Part shown: positions 1 through 16,046 of the stretch, piece after piece
Layout of the letters: each line of letters opens with the position of its first letter
Position numbering within the stretch: the first letter of the stretch is position 1
Source of the DNA: a virus
Length of the DNA: 24,887 bases
IMG/VR virus record: IMGVR_UViG_3300025603_000075
Location: 1 to 24,887 of that record
Reading direction: 5' to 3' (one strand)
The notes under the pieces: generated by a model
What the model saw: only the letters and a program-made list of their open reading frames with translations
What the model was told of the DNA's origin: nothing
Databases searched by the model: none
Program-made: the position numbers and the translations under genes

Positions 1-3000
1 CGGCCTGAATCATTATTAGCTATATCATCCATATTATCAATAGATACAAAGTCGTTAGCTTCCTGCATCTGTCTAACATGTGATTCAATCGTAGCATCAT
101 CATCAAATAAATTACTATCGTTTCGCGCCCTAATCTGTTGGTAAATAAGCTTTAAATATGGTTGCACCTCAAAGCCTGTTTGCTCAAGCATTTTTTGACT
201 AAAAGCGGAAAAAGTTCTAGCACCCGCTTCAATGTGAAAAGCGCCCATTTTAACCAATCTAAATAACTGAACGGGGTCAATCGGCAAACCGCCAGATATT
301 TTGTTTAAGTCTCGGTTGAAGTTGGCTTTTGTTCGCTCGTAGTCGGAACGGTCGACGATGCTATTGTTTGCTCCGTAGGCATCGGCTTGCGGTTCGTCAA
401 CTTGGCTATTGCCTTCTTCGCCACTAGTTTCTGCTCCCTGCTGCTTTGCGGATCGTCCAGTATTAATTGCGCCCTGTAAGCTAGATTCAACGCTTTTGTA
501 GGTCTGTTCATTGGTTTTCTTAATTTGATTGGTTTGTTCTTTGCTAAAGCCCGCTTTTTCTAAAGCTGCCTCAGCCTGTTCAGCTTTAAAAAATAAGTCT
601 TGCTCTTTGTCTTTTTCAAAAACACCTTTCTCTTTTTCTATGAGAATTGCTTCTTTTTGCGCTAACCTAATTTGCTCATCTATACCTGCTTTAACCTTTT
701 GAATGTAATCATTGGTTATTTCCACCTCACCAAATCCAACTGAACCATTTATTTGACTACGTTGTGCGTTATTGAGTTTTTTTAATCTTTCCTCACGCTC
801 AGTCCTTAAGTCGTCTACAACTTTATTAGCCTTAAACAATCTGTTATCATATTGACGCTCCATTTCACTACGTCTTCTTTCTAACGCAAGCGGTTTATCT
901 TGCTCAAAACCAAAATTAACCTTAGTACCAATAAACTCACTAAAAGCGCCTAGACTTCTAAATTTGTCATTATTTTCAGGTTTCATTAAAAACTTAAATA
1001 ACTGATTTTCATGAGAGGTTGTAAGCTGTGAGTACATTTGTCTAACTCGACCAATCCTTTGGCCAATAGACATCATTAAATCCTTGTTATCGCCTTCTGC
1101 GGTTTCTTGGAAATTACTTATTTCTTTTAATGTATCACCAGTCGTATCTAAATAAGAGAAATCAATCGCCCTAGAAGCAGCGCCAGTACCCTCAACTATT
1201 TTAGCTTTATCCTTAATAGCTTTTTTAGATTCTCCTTTTTCTCTCATTTCTCGATAAACTTTTGCCCTCTCTGATGGGGATTCCAAATCCCTACCAGTGT
1301 TTGATCTAACTGTAGCAAAATTCCTCGCCTCATCTTGAGTTCCGGTTAAAAAACGAGCAGGAGAAGACTCTTTCCCTAATCTTTTCATTGCTTCAAAACG
1401 ATGATGGCCAGCTAAAACATAAATTTCACCATCAATATCTTTCCATAAAACAAGCGGGTCTAAATCCACATTGCTAAAATCATCAACAATCCTTTGAACC
1501 TTTTCTTCCTTTAATTTTTCCCTATTTTGGAAAAGCTTTTCATTTGTTCTCATTCTTTCAACAGGTACTAAAACCGTTGAACGATCTACGGGAAACATTT
1601 CGCCATCAATTTCTACTAAATTTTTGGAATCTTCATTTTCTTCTTTATCCAACTCTGTAGTCAACTCTTGATCTAGTAAAGTTTCTTGCTCAAGTTGTAT
1701 CTCAGGACTTAATTCAGCTTCTGTCTGTACCTCATTATCTATTGGTATTGGTAGCATTGGTATAGACTCTGTGAATATCTCAGAAGAAGCAATATCAACC
1801 ACCGCTTCATCATCTGTTAGCTCTGATATAGGTTCGTTTTCTTGTTCAGTTTGCGTTAAATCATTCAAGGATTCACTCTCGCCTTGAACATGATCTTCTA
1901 ACGCCTGTAAACCACTAATAACATCTTGATCCGTTATTTCAGATTGACCGTTACTAATTTTTGCACGGCTTCTTTTTAATGAAGACACAATTATACCACC
2001 TGCGAAACCGATCACTCCACCCGCTCCGCCCGCTTCCATAACACCGTCTAAAAGTTGCCTGGATTCATCATATTTTTTTTGTGCTACAAGATTCGTTAAA
2101 GATGATTGAAGCGTTTCCTGCATTAATTCCTCTAAACCACCTTGAAAACCATCGGCTAATATCTTAGCTGATTTATTCCCACTTAAGCGGTTAATACTAT
2201 TAGCTATACCAGCAACACCCATTTTAGAAGCCACTTTTTTCATAGCACCGCTAGTCATAGCACCACCTCTAGCAAGTACTCTATTGGTTGGAATAGCTTC
2301 TGTAGAACCAATCATCCAATTATACACTTGCGCCTCAAAAGCATCTTGCTGTGTTGCACCCGATTTTATAGCGTTAGCGTATTCTTCGCCACCCATTGAT
2401 GAAGAACCTAAAGCTAAAGCTCCTACTCCACCACCAGCCGCCCCTGCTAAAACAAAAGCGCCAAAAGAACCAACGCCTTGAGGTACTACACTCAGCCAAA
2501 AACTTTCTTGCAATTCAGGGTTTGTAGGTAAAGCGTTTTCAAGACCCTTACCTATTCTATCCCCTAATTGAAAAAAATACCTCTCTTCGGGTTTCTGCTT
2601 TGAAACATCTACATCCTCGCCACCCGTAGCCTTGCTTAAAAACCGCTGTAAGCCAGCCGATACTAAAGCCGCTCCGTCAAGACCGTTGACTACACTACCC
2701 GCAATGCCAGGCATATTCTTTAAGACCGTTTTAGCTAGACCTGGTTTATCATCACCAGCCAAAATACGTTCACCCTTATTGGCCAAGCCCGCTTGATTAT
2801 AAGCAAGGCTTTGAGTAAAGGTTCTTGCAAACGATTGTATAGTACTGTTTGCAACATTTTTAAAACCGCCTATTTCATTAGCATCCTGTTGCTGTTCTTG
2901 TTCAGGCTCTGAAAAATACACACTTTGAAAACTAGAAATATCCTCACCCATACCCGTATAGCCCGATTCTTTTAATCGGTTGTATAACAAGGTTTGGTTT

Positions 3001-3104
3001 TTTTCGGTTGAGAACGTGCTTTTAAAGCTCTCGTAATCGCCTAATCCAGTTACCTCATTTATTTGCAACTGTTTATGCAATAATTCTAGTTTGTCGGTAG
3101 ACAT
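1..3104 (-). CDS. Large polyvalent virion (ejection) protein with ParB/sulfiredoxin-like domain, C-terminus cut off by window edge
   Basis: An open frame with no stop runs from an ATG at 3104 to the left edge, giving at least 1034 residues. Two Gly/Ala-rich hydrophobic segments (about residues 205-237 and 351-375) could insert in a membrane. Residues about 505-625 form a ParB N-terminal/sulfiredoxin-like domain: a strand ending in VLWKD, then the box AGHHRFEAMKRLG with GHHR at 566-569, then the helical EAR...ERAKVYREM tail usual in phage and mobile-element polyvalent proteins. A charged helical stretch follows (about 735-860). Near the edge, IEAGARTFSAFSQKML (from about residue 956) matches a motif recurrent in large polyvalent protein-associated domains. 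An AAAGGA ribosome site lies upstream. Its place after two small ejection-type genes suggests it is injected with the DNA. The domain calls are firm; nuclease or NTPase activity is not shown by the sequence. Confidence 0.85.
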   Translation of the reverse strand, partial: MSTDKLELLHKQLQINEVTGLGDYESFKSTFSTEKNQTLLYNRLKESGYTGMGEDISSFQSVYFSEPEQEQQQDANEIGGFKNVANSTIQSFARTFTQSLAYNQAGLANKGERILAGDDKPGLAKTVLKNMPGIAGSVVNGLDGAALVSAGLQRFLSKATGGEDVDVSKQKPEERYFFQLGDRIGKGLENALPTNPELQESFWLSVVPQGVGSFGAFVLAGAAGGGVGALALGSSSMGGEEYANAIKSGATQQDAFEAQVYNWMIGSTEAIPTNRVLARGGAMTSGAMKKVASKMGVAGIANSINRLSGNKSAKILADGFQGGLEELMQETLQSSLTNLVAQKKYDESRQLLDGVMEAGGAGGVIGFAGGIIVSSLKRSRAKISNGQSEITDQDVISGLQALEDHVQGESESLNDLTQTEQENEPISELTDDEAVVDIASSEIFTESIPMLPIPIDNEVQTEAELSPEIQLEQETLLDQELTTELDKEENEDSKNLVEIDGEMFPVDRSTVLVPVERMRTNEKLFQNREKLKEEKVQRIVDDFSNVDLDPLVLWKDIDGEIYVLAGHHRFEAMKRLGKESSPARFLTGTQDEARNFATVRSNTGRDLESPSERAKVYREMREKGESKKAIKDKAKIVEGTGAASRAIDFSYLDTTGDTLKEISNFQETAEGDNKDLMMSIGQRIGRVRQMYSQLTTSHENQLFKFLMKPENNDKFRSLGAFSEFIGTKVNFGFEQDKPLALERRRSEMERQYDNRLFKANKVVDDLRTEREERLKKLNNAQRSQINGSVGFGEVEITNDYIQKVKAGIDEQIRLAQKEAILIEKEKGVFEKDKEQDLFFKAEQAEAALEKAGFSKEQTNQIKKTNEQTYKSVESSLQGAINTGRSAKQQGAETSGEEGNSQVDEPQADAYGANNSIVDRSDYERTKANFNRDLNKISGGLPIDPVQLFRLVKMGAFHIEAGARTFSAFSQKMLEQTGFEVQPYLKLIYQQIRARNDSNLFDDDATIESHVRQMQEANDFVSIDNMDDIANNDSG

Positions 3105-3119
3105 GTACTTTTAATCCTT

Positions 3120-3866
3120 TTAATTAGAATCGTTGGTTATATCGCTTAAATCAAATTTTTTATTTGGTTGCAACGAATCTACTTGTGCAGAACCATAATC
3201 TGGGTATTGCCTTCTAATAATCTGCGCTTGCAAAATTGTAAAACGTCTTATAACATCAGAATAATCTTGCATTTCTTGCTTAGCTGAGGCTTTCATGGCG
3301 TCGCTAATTGAGCTATCCGTAGATTCAGTAATACGCTTCGCATTATTGTATAGCTGTTGATATTCAGGTATAGATTCGGTAATGCGAAGTATATCATCAG
3401 ATGTAGTATCTGAACCGCCGCCGCTTGCAAATGGATTTCCACCCGCTGCCAGTTGTTTTTCTACAAATGATATTTTTTGCTGTAGCTCCTTTGTCTGATT
3501 ATTAACCAATTCAGTCTGCGCCTGTGTTAATCCACCTTGTTTATTTAACATAGCCTCTCTAGCTTTACTAAATGAAGTGCTAGCATCATTTGCTTCAATA
3601 GAGCTAGTTTGTTGACGAAGAATATTGTCAGCCTCTGTTTGGTAAAAATCTTGATCTCTAGTTGAATTTAATTCTTGCTTTTCTCTCGTTTCTTGATTTA
3701 AAGCATTTACTCTTGATTCAGACAAGCTCTCTTGAGCCTTAACCAATTTATCTTGAACCTCAAGTTGTTTAGCTCGAAAATTTAAGTCTCGTACTTGCTG
3801 AATACGGCCTTCTGTAAACTGTCGCTCTCTAGCAAACACATTAGCAATACTTTGACCAAAATTCAT
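3120..3866 (-). CDS. Coiled-coil probable internal virion (ejection) protein
   Basis: This 248-residue protein is not recognised by family. Residues 1-130 are highly charged and helical, rich in Glu, Gln and Arg, as in a long coiled coil. A Gly/Ser linker at about 146-153 separates this from a second helical region, and the C-terminus is Asp/Asn-rich. There is no signal peptide or membrane segment. It starts at the TAATG junction with the upstream 158-residue gene and has a strong AAGGGGG ribosome site. It sits between a small glycine-zipper protein and the giant polyvalent protein. In T7 and P22 the equivalent positions hold ejection proteins that leave the capsid with the DNA, so a role as a middle-sized ejection protein is inferred from position and composition only. 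Confidence 0.65.
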   Translation of the reverse strand: MNFGQSIANVFARERQFTEGRIQQVRDLNFRAKQLEVQDKLVKAQESLSESRVNALNQETREKQELNSTRDQDFYQTEADNILRQQTSSIEANDASTSFSKAREAMLNKQGGLTQAQTELVNNQTKELQQKISFVEKQLAAGGNPFASGGGSDTTSDDILRITESIPEYQQLYNNAKRITESTDSSISDAMKASAKQEMQDYSDVIRRFTILQAQIIRRQYPDYGSAQVDSLQPNKKFDLSDITNDSN

Positions 3867-4342
3867 TATTTACCCCCTTCTGCTAACAAGCCTTTTAAAT
3901 CTCTATTAGATTGGCTCATAAAGCCATAGTTAAGCAAGGATGTAACCCCTCCTGTTATGCCCGCATCAATCGCTCCTGCGCGTAAACCCTTATAGCCTAG
4001 CTTAGTATTCTCTAATTGACCCAAAGCGCCCATACGCTGCCCTTCTAGCCCTCGCATGGTTTGAGTTATCTGCTCTTGAGATTGAGATTGCTGGTCCTGG
4101 TTAATTTCGTCCATCAAATTAGCATTGGCTGAAACGCCTTGTCTATTTAAAGAACGATTTATATTGCTATAGCCTTGATTAGCGCTAATAATTCGCTGCA
4201 ATAATGGAGCGTAATAATCAGGGTTCTGCAAGGCACTAATCTGATTGTTCAAACTATCTGGAACCTTAGCATTTCGGGCCCCAAGTAAGCCACCCAATAA
4301 AGAACCACCCACTCCTATAGCTGTTGATGCTATTAAACTCAT
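3866..4342 (-). CDS. Small probable ejection protein with glycine-zipper N-terminus
   Basis: A 158-residue protein whose first 23 residues are hydrophobic and small-residue rich (AIGVGGSLLGGLLGARNA), followed by a Gln/Asn-rich helical body. A second Gly/Ala/Leu stretch lies at about 120-142. A short N-terminal Gly-rich hydrophobic helix followed by a Gln-rich coiled region is typical of small podovirus DNA-ejection proteins of the T7 gp14 or P22 gp7 kind, which insert in the outer membrane, but I have no direct sequence match. It begins at an ATGA overlap with the upstream 210-residue gene and ends at a TAATG overlap with the next, so it is probably co-translated with both. Confidence 0.65.
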   Translation of the reverse strand: MSLIASTAIGVGGSLLGGLLGARNAKVPDSLNNQISALQNPDYYAPLLQRIISANQGYSNINRSLNRQGVSANANLMDEINQDQQSQSQEQITQTMRGLEGQRMGALGQLENTKLGYKGLRAGAIDAGITGGVTSLLNYGFMSQSNRDLKGLLAEGGK

Positions 4343-5689: not shown

Positions 5690-6885
5690 TAGCTTATTGT
5701 AATTGTTCCTGAACCTGATGTGAATGTTAAATTGCCCCCGGAGCCGCTATAACCTAGACCAGCCGATACACTAATACTTGAATGACCCGAAACACTTAAT
5801 ACGACTACACCTGACCCACCACTTGTTGTTGGGTTATTGTTACCGTCAACCCAAACCCAATTGTAAGAAACCGCTTCTGCGCCATTACCTGTATTACTAG
5901 CACCGCTAGCTGTAGATATTCCTGCGAGGCCTGGATCTAAAACAGAAGAACCTCCTGCCCCATAGCCTGATGAACCAGCACCACCAGCACCTGGGCTGCC
6001 TATGCTTCCAAATCCGCCAGCACCGCCAGCACCACCACCACCACCACCACCATAATAGTTAGATTGATTACCGTTATTGTTAGTATGTGCGTTACCACCG
6101 CTATTACCTTGACCCCCCATACCTGATCCAAAACCATTGTTATAAGCGCCTGAGCCAGCTCCACCGCCTGAACCACCGCCCGCACCTGCTGCCTGAAAAG
6201 AACCACCACCACCACCGCCAGTAGAGCTTATATTGTGAAATGAAGAAGATGAGCCATTATATCCACCACGAAAACCCCAAGTACCCACATAACTTCCACC
6301 ACCAGCTCCAACGGTTATATTATAGGTTCCAGCAGCTAGATTCATAGAGCCAGTCAGTAAACCACCGCCACCACCGCCACCACCACCTCCAAAGGTAGAT
6401 GTCATTCCTCCACCTCCACCGCCAGCTACTATGGTATAACCTACTGCTATGGGTGGGGCTAAATCTTGTATGGTTAAGTTCTGGTATCGTGTTGCTGAAT
6501 AAGAAAAAGAATCTGAAAAACTACATCCAACTTGTATGTTTTGGTTAGATGGTACGCTTGATGTCTGTATGTACGTCAAACTACCTGATGGAGTTAGACT
6601 AAAATACCCACCATTTGAGGATTCAAACCAAGAGTAATGTTTAGCCTGAGAGGTTATTCGAGCTGCTTTACTACCGCCCGAAAGACTAGCTGCAACATAG
6701 CATTGAAATACAGTACTCTCATCAGGTGTTGCATCATTAGTATAAAGACTCATTGAGTTTATATAAAAATCGTTATATAGCCTAGTGTAAGACGCACTTC
6801 CACCAGCTCCTGTACCTAGGCGTGTGTATGATGTAGTATTAGGCTTGCCTGTTGCATAACCTAAATTACCAAGTGAATACGACAT
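5689..6885 (-). CDS. Glycine-rich tail adhesin (receptor-binding candidate)
   Basis: A 398-residue protein in three parts: an N-terminal beta-rich domain (1-140), a glycine-rich domain (about 154-335), and a Ser/Gly-rich strand C-terminus ending in TFTSGSGTITIS. The middle part has the classic order YTIVAGGGGGG, a run of ten glycines, LAAGTYNITVGAGGG, then several Gly-rich blocks separated by short polar stretches. This matches Gly-rich domains of phage and bacterial adhesins; in T-even phages, gp38 uses polyglycine-II helices with variable loops to bind receptors. A receptor-contact role is inferred. TAATG overlaps at both ends couple it to the collagen/S74 gene before it and the DUF4376-like gene after it. 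Confidence 0.75.
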   Translation of the reverse strand: MSYSLGNLGYATGKPNTTSYTRLGTGAGGSASYTRLYNDFYINSMSLYTNDATPDESTVFQCYVAASLSGGSKAARITSQAKHYSWFESSNGGYFSLTPSGSLTYIQTSSVPSNQNIQVGCSFSDSFSYSATRYQNLTIQDLAPPIAVGYTIVAGGGGGGMTSTFGGGGGGGGGGLLTGSMNLAAGTYNITVGAGGGSYVGTWGFRGGYNGSSSSFHNISSTGGGGGGSFQAAGAGGGSGGGAGSGAYNNGFGSGMGGQGNSGGNAHTNNNGNQSNYYGGGGGGGAGGAGGFGSIGSPGAGGAGSSGYGAGGSSVLDPGLAGISTASGASNTGNGAEAVSYNWVWVDGNNNPTTSGGSGVVVLSVSGHSSISVSAGLGYSGSGGNLTFTSGSGTITIS

Positions 6886-7733
6886 TATTTTAATTTATTA
6901 ATTTGGGTTTTCATTACTTCAAATTCTTTTCTCAATTCTTTAATTCCCTCGATTAGTAACACGGAAATACCACCATAATTAACAGATAAAATGTCATTTT
7001 CGTCAACGTGTACAACCTCGGGTAATACCAAATGAATTTCTTGTGCTATAACACCTGCCCTCCTATATTTGCTTTCGTCCGCTTTTAGGTTGTATGTGTA
7101 CCCCGAAATTCGTTCTAACTTATCTAATGAGTTCTCAACAACTTCAAAATTCTCTTTTAATCGACTGTCTGAGTATGCAGCTATGTCTGCTGCTGCCGTT
7201 ATAGATACTCCACCACTATTCCCATTAACATTCAATGTGCCTGCAAGAGTCATTGATTGAAAATTAACACTATTATTTGTGTTTAAACTTTGATTCGCTG
7301 AGACACCTGCTGCACCTTGTGCACCAGTTGCACCTTGTGAGCCAGTTGCACCTTGTGAGCCAGTTGCACCTTGTGAGCCAGTTGCACCAGTTGCACCAGT
7401 TGCACCTACAAGACCCCTTGGACCTGTTGCACCAGTTGCACCTTGAATCCCTTGAATCCCTTGTTCACCTGTAACTGTATTGTTAGCAATCAACGTGTCA
7501 ACCTCGGCCTCTGTATAATAACGCCCATCGTGGTCATGGGATGCAGCTGCATAACTTCCACTCGCTTGTTTACCTGAAATAGTCGTGTCCATTGCAGCAA
7601 TTTTCGCAGATAAATCAAACTTTTTATCTTTATCAGCTACATTCGCTTCGTTTTCGTCGCGAATGTACGTAAAAGAGTCTGTTGAGGGTAGCGTCGTGAG
7701 CGTTGGTAGTTCGCTTAATTGTTCATCAGCCAT
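6885..7733 (-). CDS. Collagen-like tail fibre with self-cleaving S74 chaperone domain
   Basis: A 282-residue protein. Residues 65-78 hold [14 protein letters not shown], a common phage fibre motif. Residues 89-143 are Gly-X-Y repeats (GATGSQ three times in tandem), which should form a collagen-like triple helix. From S188 the sequence SDSRLKE starts an intramolecular chaperone autoprocessing domain of the peptidase S74 family; S188 and K193 fit the Ser/Lys dyad spacing known from endosialidase fibres, with cleavage expected just before S188. The [10 protein letters not shown] segment and the terminal coiled coil (about 250-282) are also typical. The released chaperone would promote trimer folding. 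It is translationally linked to the Gly-rich adhesin by TAATG. Confidence 0.9.
7327..7398 (-). repeat. Tandem 18-bp and 9-bp collagen-coding repeats
   Basis: On the plus strand GTTGCACCTTGTGAGCCA occurs three times without change at 7327-7344, 7345-7362 and 7363-7380, followed by two 9-bp units GTTGCACCA (7381-7398). They encode Gly-Ala-Thr-Gly-Ser-Gln and Gly-Ala-Thr triplets. Unit lengths are multiples of nine, so gain or loss keeps the frame and the Gly-X-Y register. Confidence 0.9.
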
Positions 7734-7740
7734 AATAATC

Positions 7741-8481
7741 TTATTGTAATATTTTTGAATCAGCGGTAGAGTACACTATGTAACTCGCCTTGCCTTTATT
7801 GTTTGTAATTCCTATCGGAATAAGCTGAAATGTGTAATTTGTTCCCGTGTTTGCGCTAAGTGTAAGCGTCTGTACATCTTTAGCTATCGTGTTCGTTACG
7901 CTACTTTCTTCTCGCTGGCCATCCGCTTTTTGAACTTGAACGCTATACGTCTCGGCTCCATCTTCCCACGTTAGCGTGATGTTACCGCCTGTACGCACCG
8001 CTTTAAAATTTGTAGGACGCTCAGGCCTATAATCTGGAACTATTGCTATGGCTTCGGCTATGGCTTCGGCTATAAATGTAGCACTAACGCCAAATTTAAT
8101 AACGGTCTCAGCATTTGCTTCAAATGTGAAAGGACCACCATAGCCAGATATTGAGTCCACACTCGCAATAGCAGTAGCCAGCATAACACCAGAAGCACTA
8201 AATGAGCTATCCACACTCGCAATAGCAGTAGCCACAAGTTTAGCGCTAACACTAAATCTAGCAACGGTTTCAGCATTAGAATCAAACGAGCTACCTCTAC
8301 TTTGAGTTGACGTTGAGTCCACACTCGCAATAGCAGTAGCCAGCATAACACCAGAAGCACTAAATGAGCTATCCACACTCGCAATAGCAGTAGCTAAAAA
8401 TTGCACATAGTAACCCGATAGTAGAAGCTTTCCCCCACTAGCAAGTGCTAAAGTATTTCCATTTGCAAGCTGTAAATACAT
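7741..8481 (-). CDS. Repeat-bearing tail decoration protein with fibronectin type III domain
   Basis: A 246-residue protein. The start [20 protein letters not shown] is strand-rich. Residues about 29-150 contain the phrase ATAIASVDS four times and [10 protein letters not shown] twice, alternating with NAET-containing segments; the repeats are nearly identical at DNA level. The C-terminal 95 residues, from about 152, form a likely fibronectin type III domain: [45 protein letters not shown]. Such domains decorate phage tails and may bind surface sugars. It overlaps the 121-residue gene by TAATG and lies 7 bp before the collagen/S74 gene. A role in the tail or fibre complex is inferred from neighbours. 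Confidence 0.75.
8151..8394 (-). repeat. 162-bp-period duplication inside the FN3 protein gene
   Basis: An 82-bp sequence at 8151-8232 recurs without change at 8313-8394, exactly 162 bp apart (54 codons). The 80 bp between the copies is itself a diverged copy of the sequence at 8071-8150, so this is an in-frame segmental duplication with one half conserved and the other drifted. Confidence 0.9.
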
Positions 8482-11535: not shown

Positions 11536-13759
11536 TAGGTAACCTCACTCTAAAATAAACGCTATCTATTGTCTCAAAATAACCCAGTAAAAGCTGAACA
11601 GATTGTACTTTCACGTTATTCACAAAGCGTATAACATGCGTATCTCCGTCCGAAGTAAGTGTTACCGCTGTATTACCACCGCTAGGAGTTACTTCTATCC
11701 AATTTCCCCCATCAAATCGGTAAAAAATACTCTCCCCTCGTGCGGAATCTCCGCTATGAATCTGCCCTCGAATAATAGCTTCATACAACCAAAACTCCCC
11801 GTTATCGCTATTAAATGTATAATCGTATGTTACTAAAACTATTGGCTCGCTATCGTTGCTACTAAACATCTCAACCAGCTTTGGACCCGTAGAGACATAT
11901 AAATTGGAATCCATTATAGCTGAACCTTTTATCGTGGTATTATCCACCGATAATGAGCCTGAATAAGGCACGTAAAAATCCCATCTTTGGCGCGAGAAAT
12001 CATACATCCATGCTTTGCACTTAGTGCTATTGTACTGGCCTAAAATACACAACCGCCCTTCTCTAGGGTCATAGGCTAACTGCATAGAATTGCGCCTAGC
12101 TTCGGTTATATCTCTATAACCTACATTGGAAGAGTACCCACCGCTATGTACAGAGCTGCTAATGGTGGTTATAGCCGAACCTGTGTTCAAATAAATCCCG
12201 CTATGATCTGCGTGGCAAATACCGTAAGGCGTTGCACATACGTGATTCTGTGAAATTGCGCCAAAGCCGTCAAACTCACTCTCTATGTATAATCCAGCCG
12301 GATTTATTCTATATGTTTTACTCTCTGTATATGCGTAAAGTCTACTCTCAAAAGTAGCTATAGCTGTAACGGGTTCAGGTAGCTGAATAAAATCATTCAG
12401 TATATTAAATGAGCTAGGCGATCCCGCAACACTTCTAAAAATTAAACCTTCTGTAGTGTCGAAAAATCTGTTAGTACCAACACCCGAAACAAAAAGGTAC
12501 TCATTTACTTTAACGCCTTGCGTGTAATTTAATCCATTTTCTTCTAGCGTCTCGGGAATACCGCTATTACTCTCGTATGTAGCGCCTGCAAAACCATCAT
12601 CATAAAAACTTATAGACTTAACGCCACCGCCAGCCTCGATATTCGGCATGGTTTCAGTAGCTCTGCCACTGAGCCTAAAATCTGCCACAGCCCTAGATTG
12701 CCATTTTTCCGTTTGCTTTTCATCATCAAAAGAAAAAAACTTGACAAACTTAAATAATTCTTCTGGTGTACTTTCTAAACTTGACGCTTCGGCTCGATAA
12801 ATATTCAAGCCCGTTACGCGGTGGCTCATGCCATTAGGGTAATCATTTAACCCATTGGTGTAAGAAGTTGGTGGAAATGCTATAAATAACTCAACCTCTA
12901 TGCCTAGTGCATTTTGAGCTAATTTAATAGTATTAAAATATGAAACTCTAGATCGACCGTCTCCTCGTCGTGTTGCAGAGGTCTTTTCTGAATAACTTCT
13001 AATTAAAGGGCTTTCTTGATACCCGTCATAAATAAGACTAACAGCGTAAGCGTAACTTTTACCCTCTTTAAATACGGTTAGCATCGTTTCATCATCCGTA
13101 AACTCATAAACTTTACCTACCCTAGAAAATGTATCGACGCTATCAGTTACCGTACCATCACGAGAAATAATTCTATTTACTTTAGTACCACTAGATATAA
13201 ACGAAATAGCAACTTTTTCTAAATTGGTAGGGTTACTGTCATCTGTACTTACTTGTCTATAGGCACCTTCTTCCACATGATAAATATGCCCTTCTACATT
13301 GTTAAAGGCATTTAGTTTATTATCCTCGATGAAATAGCCGTCAACCGTACCATTCAAAACCTTTCTATCTATATAGCTAATATGCTTGGTTGAATTTACC
13401 TTTCCACAAGTAGCAATAAGCCTTCCATCTATCGGGATAAACTGCTGAACCTGAGTTGTATTTGGTGTATTACCTACGTCGGTAATCGCCGCTCCGCTAT
13501 ATAATTTAATAGCGCCAGACGAATAATCTTGGCCAATAATCTGCTGCTTTGCTTGCGCTAAAAATGTACCCAACACATCAGCCACAAAATTAGTTGAGTT
13601 AGCGGCATCAGGGCTACTACTAACCGCGCGCACTTGCCCAGATAAACCGCTATCGGCATTTTCTGCAAATGGATAAAATCCTTCTCTAGGGTCTCGCTCG
13701 GAAGCGTTTAGTAATATCCCTTTGTCAAAGTTAGTTATCTTGAGTAGGCGCTTGGGCAT
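11522..13759 (-). CDS. Nozzle-like tail tube protein (T7 gp12-type beta-propeller candidate)
   Basis: A 745-residue, strand-rich protein starting MPKRLLKITNFDKGI, with a GAGG ribosome site six bases upstream. Repeated blades with Trp/Tyr/Asp turns run through the middle and end, for example AIATFESRLYAYTESKTYRI, then MQLAYDPREGRLCILGQY and KAWMYDFSRQRWDFY. This order (short N-terminal arm, then a beta-propeller reporting fixed turn motifs) and the length suit the tail nozzle of T7-like phages (gp12, about 790 residues), or the P22 gp10 hub group. It lies between the adaptor-coil protein and the central fibre, which also fits the distal tail tube. The fold is inferred from the pattern only. 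Confidence 0.6.
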   Translation of the reverse strand: MPKRLLKITNFDKGILLNASERDPREGFYPFAENADSGLSGQVRAVSSSPDAANSTNFVADVLGTFLAQAKQQIIGQDYSSGAIKLYSGAAITDVGNTPNTTQVQQFIPIDGRLIATCGKVNSTKHISYIDRKVLNGTVDGYFIEDNKLNAFNNVEGHIYHVEEGAYRQVSTDDSNPTNLEKVAISFISSGTKVNRIISRDGTVTDSVDTFSRVGKVYEFTDDETMLTVFKEGKSYAYAVSLIYDGYQESPLIRSYSEKTSATRRGDGRSRVSYFNTIKLAQNALGIEVELFIAFPPTSYTNGLNDYPNGMSHRVTGLNIYRAEASSLESTPEELFKFVKFFSFDDEKQTEKWQSRAVADFRLSGRATETMPNIEAGGGVKSISFYDDGFAGATYESNSGIPETLEENGLNYTQGVKVNEYLFVSGVGTNRFFDTTEGLIFRSVAGSPSSFNILNDFIQLPEPVTAIATFESRLYAYTESKTYRINPAGLYIESEFDGFGAISQNHVCATPYGICHADHSGIYLNTGSAITTISSSVHSGGYSSNVGYRDITEARRNSMQLAYDPREGRLCILGQYNSTKCKAWMYDFSRQRWDFYVPYSGSLSVDNTTIKGSAIMDSNLYVSTGPKLVEMFSSNDSEPIVLVTYDYTFNSDNGEFWLYEAIIRGQIHSGDSARGESIFYRFDGGNWIEVTPSGGNTAVTLTSDGDTHVIRFVNNVKVQSVQLLLGYFETIDSVYFRVRLPNVEE

Positions 13760-16046
13760 TTAAACCTCGATTAGTGTAAAGCATTAAGGTGTCTTGGTAG
13801 AGCTGACGCAACAAACCCACTCTATTAATATTTATTTGAGAAGTAGTATTTGCAGCTTGAAGCTCATTCGATTTATTTTGCACAAATAGCCCCACATTTT
13901 GCCCATAAATCTGTGCTTCTGCATTAAAAATTGTAAGGGCTGTTTGCGTATTGGCTACTTTTGCCTGCAAATCATTAGCCGCACTTACCACCCTAAGTTG
14001 GTCGGATTGAATTTTTGCTAGACGTATTAGCTCTAGGTCTTTACTCATGTTCGCTTGCTCAATCGCCGCTTCGGCTTGCGCTTCTGAAATAGCCGCTTGC
14101 AGGGTATTAGCCGCATTACTAATTGCTACTTGATTAGCATAATCGGAGTTACGGACAAGTATCTGTAATTCATTGGCTTTATTTGATAGCGCTACGCTAT
14201 CAGCTTGCCCAGCATTTTGTAGAGAGACCTGAATATCTTTGGTAAGATTCGCTGCCGCTATTTGATTAGCGTTATTTGAACTCGTTAGCAATCGCTGTAA
14301 TTCATTGGCTTTATTTTGCAGCGTAACCTGTGTAGCGGCAGAAGCGTTGGCCAAGTTCACATTAACGGCTAATTGAGAATCTTGTAATTTACCCCTCACA
14401 TCTGCATCAAACTTTTGTAATACCCCTTGAAGGGAACCGCTATAAGTAGTTAATACGCCTTGAAATTCTGCGTTAGCCTTATCTACGTCTGCTCGGTACT
14501 CTGCAAGCAAACTACTAATAGCTTGATTTCTGGCCTGTAAACCTTGCGCTAATCCCTGAAATTCTGCCGCCCGATCTTGGGAGCGTAGTTGATTACGAGA
14601 TAATTTTAATTCTTCATTGGCTCGCTCTAGGTTGGATTTAACTTCTTCCGCACGTAGTCGAAGCTGGTCGGAGCTTAACCCCGCTTGATTCTGAGCTACT
14701 TCTAAATTACCAAACTGGACACGAACACCTCTGTCGGACAAGTCTAGCTCTCTATCTTTAAATCCACCCTCTACATTACGCACTTGACGCTCTAGCTCTA
14801 ATCTAAACTCGTCTAGCTTGACTTGATGGCTTTGTATATCGTTCTGTATATCTGACTGAAAACGCTGAACAAGCGTATTCGCCTGCGCCGTGAGAGCTGC
14901 GGCTACTTCTGTATCATCATTATCAGCTAGTCGGTTTGTTATGTTCGTAAGAACAGCCGTAAAGTCGGATAAAGTAGTTTTAGTGTGAGAGGGTACGGCA
15001 ACGCCGTCTTGATAATTTTCATCCGTACCAGTTGTGGCTGTTATATCCGAGCCGTCAACAACGTAAGACAAGCTAGTGGGAGCAAAGCTATTTAGCGTCT
15101 CACTAATATTGCCACCCGCTTCATTACCTGTATTCGAGGTATCAGCTGTAGCTAATTTTATTCTATCTACTATTAAACCAATTTTTGTAGCATCACTGAG
15201 TAACGCTGTAACCAATGTACCGATATTGGTATTTTTGGTAATAGTACCAAAGGAGCCTAGCGTAGGTAGGCTGCCAACTGCGGGAACCGTAACAACGTCG
15301 TTGGAAGCGTCGGTACTAGAGCCATCGGATTGATTACCTACAGCTACAACCGAAGCATTAGAGACACTAGCGTCCTCATTAGTAACGTCAAGGTCATTAG
15401 GCTTAGTAATACTTGCAGCAGTAGCGCTAGAGCCAGAAATAGCAGGATTTGATGCGTCAATCACAGAGCCTACTGAATCCCCTGTAACAGCCGCGCTAGT
15501 TACATCCGTTATAGTAGGAGTAGTCGGCTCATTACTAGTTACAAACCCGCTAAAATCAAAATTTAACGCGTCTATATCGGCACTAATAATAGATTGCAAT
15601 TCTACAATAGCTGCGCGGATTATAGACGCTTCTTCTAACTCGTTTGGTAGCCAAGTAATTTCATTACCAGACATATCTATTACAGCAACAGATAATAAAT
15701 AAGCTTTTGCATTTACTGTAGAAGGAATAGTATAGAGCTTTTGATTTAAGTAATAATATCGTGGAGATAGTATTGTCGCGCTATTCATGCTATCTGAATC
15801 GTTTAGCTCTGGAACTTGTGAAGCTTCGGCTAATAATGCTTGCCTAGACCCATTATGAACGCTTAAAATAATGTCATTAACTGATACCGTTAAGCCCGCA
15901 ACCGGAACAGTATGCTGAGTAGCTAATTTAGAAATATCTTCAAGCTGTATAAGTCTAAAATGTATCTTAGCACTAGCATTAAGCGCCTCCGCTGCGTTAG
16001 TTGCGTTAGCGCCTATATACTGCTGTAGTCGGGTTAATAGGCTCAT
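13731..16046 (-). CDS. Adaptor-like domain fused to long hendecad coiled coil, structural protein
   Basis: A 771-residue protein. Residues 1-160 look like a head-tail adaptor: helices followed by YYYLNQKLYTIPSTVNAKAY, a strand pair, and the helix WLPNELEEASIIRAAIVELQ. Residues about 165-370 are a low-complexity Ser/Thr/Asp/Val-rich linker. Residues about 390-745 are a long coiled coil; 547-711 divide without gaps into fifteen 11-residue blocks, with ANELQ, ANTLQ or ANDLQ starting every second or fourth block. An AAGGA ribosome site lies upstream and the 3' end overlaps the next gene by 29 bp. It follows the lysis cassette and precedes the nozzle-like protein. A connector with a rod that enters the tail tube or capsid is inferred; a short tape-measure-like or needle-like role is the alternative. 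Confidence 0.65.
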   Translation of the reverse strand: MSLLTRLQQYIGANATNAAEALNASAKIHFRLIQLEDISKLATQHTVPVAGLTVSVNDIILSVHNGSRQALLAEASQVPELNDSDSMNSATILSPRYYYLNQKLYTIPSTVNAKAYLLSVAVIDMSGNEITWLPNELEEASIIRAAIVELQSIISADIDALNFDFSGFVTSNEPTTPTITDVTSAAVTGDSVGSVIDASNPAISGSSATAASITKPNDLDVTNEDASVSNASVVAVGNQSDGSSTDASNDVVTVPAVGSLPTLGSFGTITKNTNIGTLVTALLSDATKIGLIVDRIKLATADTSNTGNEAGGNISETLNSFAPTSLSYVVDGSDITATTGTDENYQDGVAVPSHTKTTLSDFTAVLTNITNRLADNDDTEVAAALTAQANTLVQRFQSDIQNDIQSHQVKLDEFRLELERQVRNVEGGFKDRELDLSDRGVRVQFGNLEVAQNQAGLSSDQLRLRAEEVKSNLERANEELKLSRNQLRSQDRAAEFQGLAQGLQARNQAISSLLAEYRADVDKANAEFQGVLTTYSGSLQGVLQKFDADVRGKLQDSQLAVNVNLANASAATQVTLQNKANELQRLLTSSNNANQIAAANLTKDIQVSLQNAGQADSVALSNKANELQILVRNSDYANQVAISNAANTLQAAISEAQAEAAIEQANMSKDLELIRLAKIQSDQLRVVSAANDLQAKVANTQTALTIFNAEAQIYGQNVGLFVQNKSNELQAANTTSQININRVGLLRQLYQDTLMLYTNRGLNAQAPTQDN

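Follow-up and report, generated by a model that had tools for sequence, protein, structure and literature searches.

A cysteine-free giant phage protein with ends that resemble DNA-ejection proteins and a ParB-type module in its middle

What might a phage deliver into its host in a single protein chain of more than two thousand residues, encoded at the end of a block of virion genes? The question is raised by a gene at the left edge of IMGVR_UViG_3300025603_000075, positions 1-24,887, a stretch of virus DNA of 24,887 nucleotides that is called the window here. The gene starts with an ATG behind an AAAGGA ribosome site and is open to the window edge. A preliminary description, made from the window alone, expected it to continue beyond its 1,034 visible codons, and indeed two near-identical viral contigs carry it uninterrupted past the edge, with 2,283 and 2,284 codons (Table 1). 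Judged by sequence, the ends of the complete protein look like parts involved in DNA passage through the envelope, and its middle holds a ParB-type module. We favour, with a probability of roughly 0.6, the reading that a podovirus, probably a temperate one, uses it as its third ejection protein, and its largest, to deliver a ParB module that would bind DNA at the inner membrane and act there as a long-lived clamp. When the whole protein, the C-terminus or the ParB part was used as a single query sequence, scans retrieved the near-identical contigs and one ParB relative (L012) only, and alignments were required to go further.

The C-terminal ~780 residues (1500-2284) are, from their sequence relationships, an internal-virion-protein domain and not an enzyme. 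Residues 1669-2274 match a 1,121-residue protein of podovirus ctQWt234 (E 5e-44), whose gene ends the same kind of operon, and for which, in turn, many T7-like marine phages have a match in their 'internal virion protein D' (about 1e-10 to 1e-12). The domain also matches phrog_6651, 'internal virion protein', directly in PHROG (E 1.9e-8), and a profile of 16 of its relatives matches internal virion proteins at 1e-16 to 1e-29. With the AlphaFold2 model of the domain as a query (predicted local distance difference test score, pLDDT, 71; predicted template modelling score, pTM, 0.66), internal virion proteins of Pelagibacter and Synechococcus phages were found in BFVD at 2e-12 and 4e-11, together with giants of the ART, MuF-C and LPD kinds. 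The preliminary description had suggested that further enzymatic domains might follow at the C-terminus; the ejection domain was found there instead. A scan with a two-sequence alignment located this domain in 24 contigs, including the two near-copies of the window gene. In all 24 cases it forms the C-terminus of a long protein, of 1,380-3,759 residues except for two frames that are cut at the contig end. The profile of the domain does not match N4 gp50, and by profile the domain was not detected in the giants L012, L028, L029 and L031.

By position, size and composition, the giant gene is the third and last gene of a gp14/gp15/gp16-like ejection triad among the virion genes, in agreement with the placement in the preliminary description. 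The triad of the window mirrors the gene order of T7 gp14-gp15-gp16 and N4 gp52-gp51-gp50, and the succession of a 158-residue protein, a 248-residue protein and a giant recurs with similar sizes in many relatives. The two small proteins have no detectable homology to their counterparts in the relatives, with which they agree in position, size, hydropathy and cysteine content alone. By sequence, the 248-residue protein matches no named family, and the 158-residue protein has no confident family match in Pfam or PHROG.

The complete giant protein has no cysteine among its 2,284 residues. The giants at 19 loci contain 16 cysteines in 47,374 residues, or 0.34 per 1,000, compared to 8.0 per 1,000 in neighbouring open reading frames of 500-1,300 residues and 10.8 per 1,000 in smaller ones, which corresponds to a roughly 30-fold depletion. 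T7 gp15, T7 gp16 and the N4 virion RNA polymerase (vRNAP) have no cysteine either. The lack of cysteine in N4-type vRNAP is known, and it has been proposed that disulfides would impede passage through the tail (PMC3915230). The other late proteins of the window are also cysteine-poor (2.1 per 1,000; at this rate, the probability of finding none in 2,284 residues is ~0.008), and therefore the depletion is partly general to virion proteins. We take the exclusion of cysteine as indirect support for packaging of the giant protein in the virion and for its ejection. ParB domains usually serve partition, and the phage is probably temperate, as it carries an integrase, so that one could also think of a partition ParB that was fused to a late gene by chance and is not injected at all. 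Such an accident is extremely improbable in view of the late operon position, the ejection-type ends, the lack of cysteine, and the recurrence of the module in unrelated virion giants.

Residues 510-633 are a true ParB N-domain, of the ParB/Noc rather than the DdrB type. In the region of residues 500-630, for which the preliminary description had envisaged profile searches, they match the ParB-like family phrog_1033 (E 2.9e-14 for the part in the window, 8e-14 for the full protein). The Pfam ParB_N match is sub-threshold (0.012-0.036), and phmmer against the PDB gave Spo0J (6.6e-4) and sulfiredoxin (1.8e-3). The family profile with seven relatives matches M. xanthus ParB (1.8e-11) and Noc (1.4e-10). 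When the AlphaFold2 model of the module (pLDDT 80, pTM 0.47) was compared with solved structures by Foldseek, ParB, Noc and KorB were the best matches (6.7e-7 and up), and sulfiredoxins ranked lower (5.9e-4). The domain had been described as ParB/Srx-like with a GHHR motif. The ParB part of this description stands, by profile and by predicted fold, but sulfiredoxin activity is excluded, because the motif is GHHR instead of GCHR and the whole protein is devoid of cysteine. Membership in the DdrB-ParB family was also ruled out, since PF18763 gave no match up to E 1, while the same library detects this family in L048 and L052.

The GHHR motif occupies residues 566-569. As a reference for the nucleotide pocket we used the Q52A and E93A entries of M. 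xanthus ParB, with residue numbers deduced from the spacing of 41 residues and from the E93A sequence. The Q52A site corresponds to Q526, which is kept, and the E93A site, the glutamate of the GERR motif, corresponds to H567, with R569 retained. In the later EN motif, the glutamate is replaced by S601, followed by a conserved N602. The pattern is not peculiar to the window protein: all seven aligned module proteins have histidine at the first glutamate site and serine or alanine at the second, and all seven conserve the pocket glutamine, the GHxR motif and the asparagine. In terms of sequence, both glutamates that ParB requires for hydrolysis of cytidine triphosphate (CTP) are thus replaced. 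In B. subtilis ParB, the E78Q and E111Q exchanges abolish CTP hydrolysis, the E78Q variant still entraps DNA, and exchanges for alanine or histidine gave a similar picture in initial tests (PMC8494293). We equate E78 and E111 with the glutamates of the GERR and EN motifs from their position, which is our reading. With both hydrolytic glutamates replaced, lasting engagement of DNA would be favoured.

The ParB domain, together with ~200 further residues, is common to seven other proteins (Table 1). Of these, gp43 of Salisaeta phage SSIP-1 carries the module that is nearest by sequence among isolated phages. The closest module in viral contigs is that of a 67-kb phage (L012), which also encodes a late-block protein (L012:62-3925) with a crAss-type muzzle C-terminal domain (E 1.6e-8), and so the module reaches a crAss-like phage. 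Among 395 genomes of the phylum to which Bizionia belongs, only Bizionia itself and one frame of 2,067 residues yielded the full module, and the remaining hits were short frames that mostly resemble chromosomal ParBs. The 2,067-residue frame (L064; G006 contig 2, about 155928-156707) is from a bacterial genome and has a GNHR variant of the module. The part of it that was read has no cysteine, and it is possibly a polyvalent protein of a mobile element.

The C-terminal ejection domain recurs as well, in combination with other cargo. In the 22 further viral contigs it ends giants that differ in what they carry upstream of it. DdrB-ParB domains are found on the same chassis in L048 (7163-7558, 6e-38) and L052 (6404-6784, 7e-26), L040 has two ART-PolyVal stretches (4e-23), and the L057-L060 proteins match the ART-rich parts of L031. 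This chassis has thus received ParB-superfamily domains of two subfamilies, probably in independent events. One may go further and suggest that podoviruses and related phages share an exchangeable ejection chassis, for which a ParB clamp that does not hydrolyse CTP would be one cargo. At the inner membrane this clamp would grip the incoming genome as a one-way catch for DNA, taking the place of an RNA polymerase motor. We offer this generalization as speculative and rather doubtful.

For the ParB domains of polyvalent proteins, a nuclease role has been proposed, and several ParB-fold proteins have DNase activity (PMC5512222). The module could be a nucleotide-regulated, non-specific DNase that nicks phage DNA for replication or attacks the DNA of the host or of rival elements; it retains the pocket arginine R569, and true DdrB-ParB domains sit on the same chassis. 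However, it is nearer to ParB, Noc and KorB than to DdrB-ParB, does not match PF18763, has CTPase ParBs as its top folds, and, like DNA-binding ParBs, continues into helices and a long coiled coil. Moreover, an unregulated nuclease at the entry pore would threaten the phage's own genome. On balance, a nuclease appears somewhat unlikely. It could also be argued that the middle of the protein is functionless and serves purely as a spacer or packing mass, as both catalytic glutamates are lost and compact internal virion proteins of 1,217-1,415 residues eject without such an insert. A mere filler would not be expected to keep the glutamine, the GHxR motif and the asparagine in 7/7 aligned module proteins, or to be represented by two ParB subfamilies on one chassis, and we regard this explanation as quite improbable.

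The N-terminal end of the giant protein resembles a different ejection protein. Residues 207-434 match the N4 vRNAP family phrog_2206 (E 4.4e-9), over profile positions 229-479 of 3406 only, and the matched region of vRNAP has been termed a likely membrane-spanning domain in a preprint on N4 (PMC12633501). No RNA polymerase domain was found in the giant protein with Pfam, and by profile the N-terminal domain was not detected in the compact internal virion proteins. The two Gly-rich, membrane-like segments that had been noted at the outset are present at residues 201-237 and 351-379 (peak Kyte-Doolittle hydropathy 1.78 and 1.57) in a conserved region, though by composition alone they are only mildly unusual, and hydropathy is weak evidence in this case.

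An IEAGARTF motif of polyvalent proteins had also been pointed out near the window edge. It lies at residues 957-965, as HIEAGARTF, in a DarB-like region, and since this stretch matches phrog_10089, it can be assigned by sequence to a recognised polyvalent-protein region. The region is also present in the relatives L047, L052 and L053-L055, which have the ejection chassis. The curated polyvalent domains of Pfam (LPD, ART-PolyVal, ddrB-ParB, MuF_C) are absent from the giant protein up to E 1 and present in relatives, and residues 1040-1500 matched no family. Like other polyvalent proteins, the giant protein combines several unrelated domains in one large late-gene product. The P1 proteins DarA and DarB protect injected DNA (PMC5512222), and the ParB and DarB-like parts might block restriction and other nucleases by coating or mimicking DNA, with no clamp or nuclease chemistry involved. 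The acidic linker and the anti-restriction protein of the phage (phrog_7245, E 2e-80) would fit with such an anti-defence role. Against it, Pfam identifies no methylase or helicase domain in the giant protein, the DarB match is limited to a stretch that is common to many giants, and the acidic stretch is short. We consider pure anti-defence cargo unlikely.

The preliminary description had pictured a single chain that crosses the envelope and carries an effector. The C-terminal internal-virion-protein domain, the N4-vRNAP-like N-terminus, the lack of cysteine and the presence of the same chassis with other cargo all support this picture. According to the clamp reading, the chain would be packaged in the head and threaded through the tail behind the gp14- and gp15-like proteins. 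Its two hydrophobic ends would insert at the inner membrane, and would expose in the cytoplasm the ~1,000 residues of cargo between them, of which the ParB-type module and the DarB-like region are the recognisable parts. For T7 gp16, two hydrophobic regions have been described, along with a cytoplasmic part that is implicated in binding DNA (PMC8954989), and the third ejection protein of DEV/N4 has been proposed to project its RNA polymerase into the cytoplasm (PMC10925440); it is from the analogy to these proteins that we infer a cytoplasmic ParB module between membrane-associated parts. The module may bind the first entering DNA and act as a lasting holder or clamp rather than as a recycling CTPase. 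The clamp could stop the entering genome from slipping back, or could protect its leading end against host nucleases and restriction up to the onset of expression.

Several points weigh against this interpretation. T7 gp16 is not reached from the C-terminal domain by sequence profile, and the model of this domain has no significant match in the PDB, so that the term 'gp16-like' rests on operon position and on the annotation of relatives. The hydropathy of the N-terminal segments is borderline, as at least two segments above 1.5 occur in 14% of shuffled sequences. Past the ParB N-domain, the predicted helices come in the right order and Foldseek alignments extend over ~200 columns, but with root mean square deviations of 8-12. 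The helix-turn-helix is suggested by the order of elements, in a model with a pTM of 0.47. Finally, the GERR pair is altered at its second residue too, from arginine to H568. For S. coelicolor ParB, CTP binding is reported to drop when the GERR motif is changed, R142A being one such exchange (PMC12207404), and by analogy nucleotide binding of the module is uncertain and may be lost.

Table 1. Location of the giant gene, its parts and its upstream neighbours, and proteins that share the ParB module
Feature	Location	Strand	Size or residues	Remarks
Giant ejection/polyvalent gene, N-terminal part	3..3104	-	1,034 codons	Open reading frame open to left window edge
Full giant gene in near-identical contigs	L003:8732-15586, L002:8703-15554		2,284 residues (full protein)	
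N-terminal membrane-type domain	1917..2657	-	residues 150-396	Homologous in giant phage proteins L031 and L045 and in N4-type vRNAP N-terminal region
Acidic linker	1605..1904	-	residues 401-500	Net charge -30 per 100 residues
ParB module	597..1589	-	residues 506-836	ParB N-domain 510-633, then helices, 'HENxxFxFL' block at 698, long coiled coil
DarB-like region	96..551	-	residues 852-1003	phrog_10089 E 3.7e-14, phrog_938 E 2.7e-9
Protein at gp15-like (periplasmic tunnel) position	3120..3866	-	248 residues	Helical, Gln-rich, cysteine-free; by position and composition
Protein at gp14/gp7-like (outer-membrane pore) position	3866..4342	-	158 residues	Cysteine-free, hydrophobic Gly-rich N-terminus; by position, peak hydropathy 1.64
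ParB module protein	L012		2,965 residues	37% over 202 residues
ParB module protein	L028		3,317 residues	Also MuF_C (1e-25) and LPD3
ParB module protein	L029/L030		3,073 residues	
ParB module protein	L031		at least 3,775 residues	Three ART-PolyVal stretches, SNF2-type ATPase
ParB module protein, Salisaeta phage SSIP-1	gp43		2,319 residues	Methylase; annotated structural protein
ParB module protein, Bizionia chromosome	L033:9605-11896		763 residues	Joined to P-loop ATPase-like part (by eye)
ParB module protein, Aquimarina metagenome-assembled genome				

The window is contained in IMGVR_UViG_3300025502_000035 (G001; 46,587 bp), one of the two near-identical contigs, the ends of which overlap by 419 bp at 97.6% identity. 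This record is probably a complete genome of ~46.2 kb that is circularly permuted or terminally redundant. Among the genes of the phage are those for a P22-type portal (Pfam P22_portal, 4e-46), an SU10-type major capsid protein (1.5e-13), a phage lysozyme, a large terminase, a DnaB helicase and an integrase (L006:9341-10498; phrog_1, 1.5e-29), and, together with the anti-restriction and repair proteins, this set points to a podovirus that is probably temperate. The genes for the anti-restriction protein (L006:5579-6505) and for the DNA repair protein (6585-7076; phrog_10276, E 7e-32) are located near the terminase gene. Elsewhere in the window, positions 7741-8481 encode a tail-region protein with repeated blocks (internal direct repeats) and no match otherwise. 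Positions 13731-16046, between the lysis and tail genes, encode a cysteine-free, helix-rich late protein of 771 residues without a confident family match.

The findings join two literatures, on polyvalent giants, which have been studied mainly by sequence, and on the podoviral DNA ejectosome, which has been studied by structure. Should the C-terminal domain be a delivery chassis in common use, the route by which many polyvalent effectors, such as ADP-ribosyltransferases, MuF-C nucleases and ParB, enter cells would become testable. The near-absence of cysteine can serve as a simple mark by which ejected proteins are recognised from sequence. A ParB that naturally lacks the catalytic glutamates and is linked to a channel for DNA entry offers a concrete candidate for what holds incoming phage DNA.

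Among known systems, the phrog_6651 proteins ('internal virion protein D', at the gp16 position in Pelagibacter, cyano- and roseobacter podoviruses) are like the giant protein in their C-terminal domain, in being encoded last in a three-gene ejection operon, and in being free or nearly free of cysteine. They differ in having 1,217-1,415 residues, whereas the giant protein has ~1,000 extra residues of cargo, with the ParB module and the DarB-like region, upstream of the ejection domain. The vRNAP of N4 and DEV, an ejection protein of the Schitoviridae, has a similar N-terminal domain and shares the giant size, the absence of cysteine and the presence of an enzyme-type module in the third ejection protein. 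In contrast, the module is an RNA polymerase domain in vRNAP and a ParB module here, and the C-terminus here is of the internal-virion-protein type. With phage polyvalent proteins (P1 DdrB/DarB and the ART, MuF-C and LPD giants; Iyer et al. 2017), the giant protein has in common its many unrelated modules, its origin from a late gene and its DarB-like region. In polyvalent giants elsewhere, the ParB module co-occurs with ART-PolyVal, MuF_C, LPD3, SNF2 and methylase domains. In the window protein, however, the ParB part is of the ParB/Noc type with GHHR and not DdrB-ParB, and a curated LPD domain was not found. The ParB, Noc and KorB CTPase clamps are similar in the fold of the N-domain, the pocket glutamine and asparagine and the helices that follow, but the window module has H567 and S601 in place of the catalytic glutamates and is embedded in a giant late protein. 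SSIP-1 gp43 has the same ParB-plus-helical module, but belongs to a tailless phage, carries a methylase and has no detectable internal-virion-protein C-terminus. The parts of the giant protein are of known kinds. As far as searches of open-licence papers show, what appears to be new is a ParB/Noc-type GHHR module inside an ejection protein, and the finding that polyvalent giants are directly connected, through the sequence of their C-termini, with the internal virion proteins of podoviruses.

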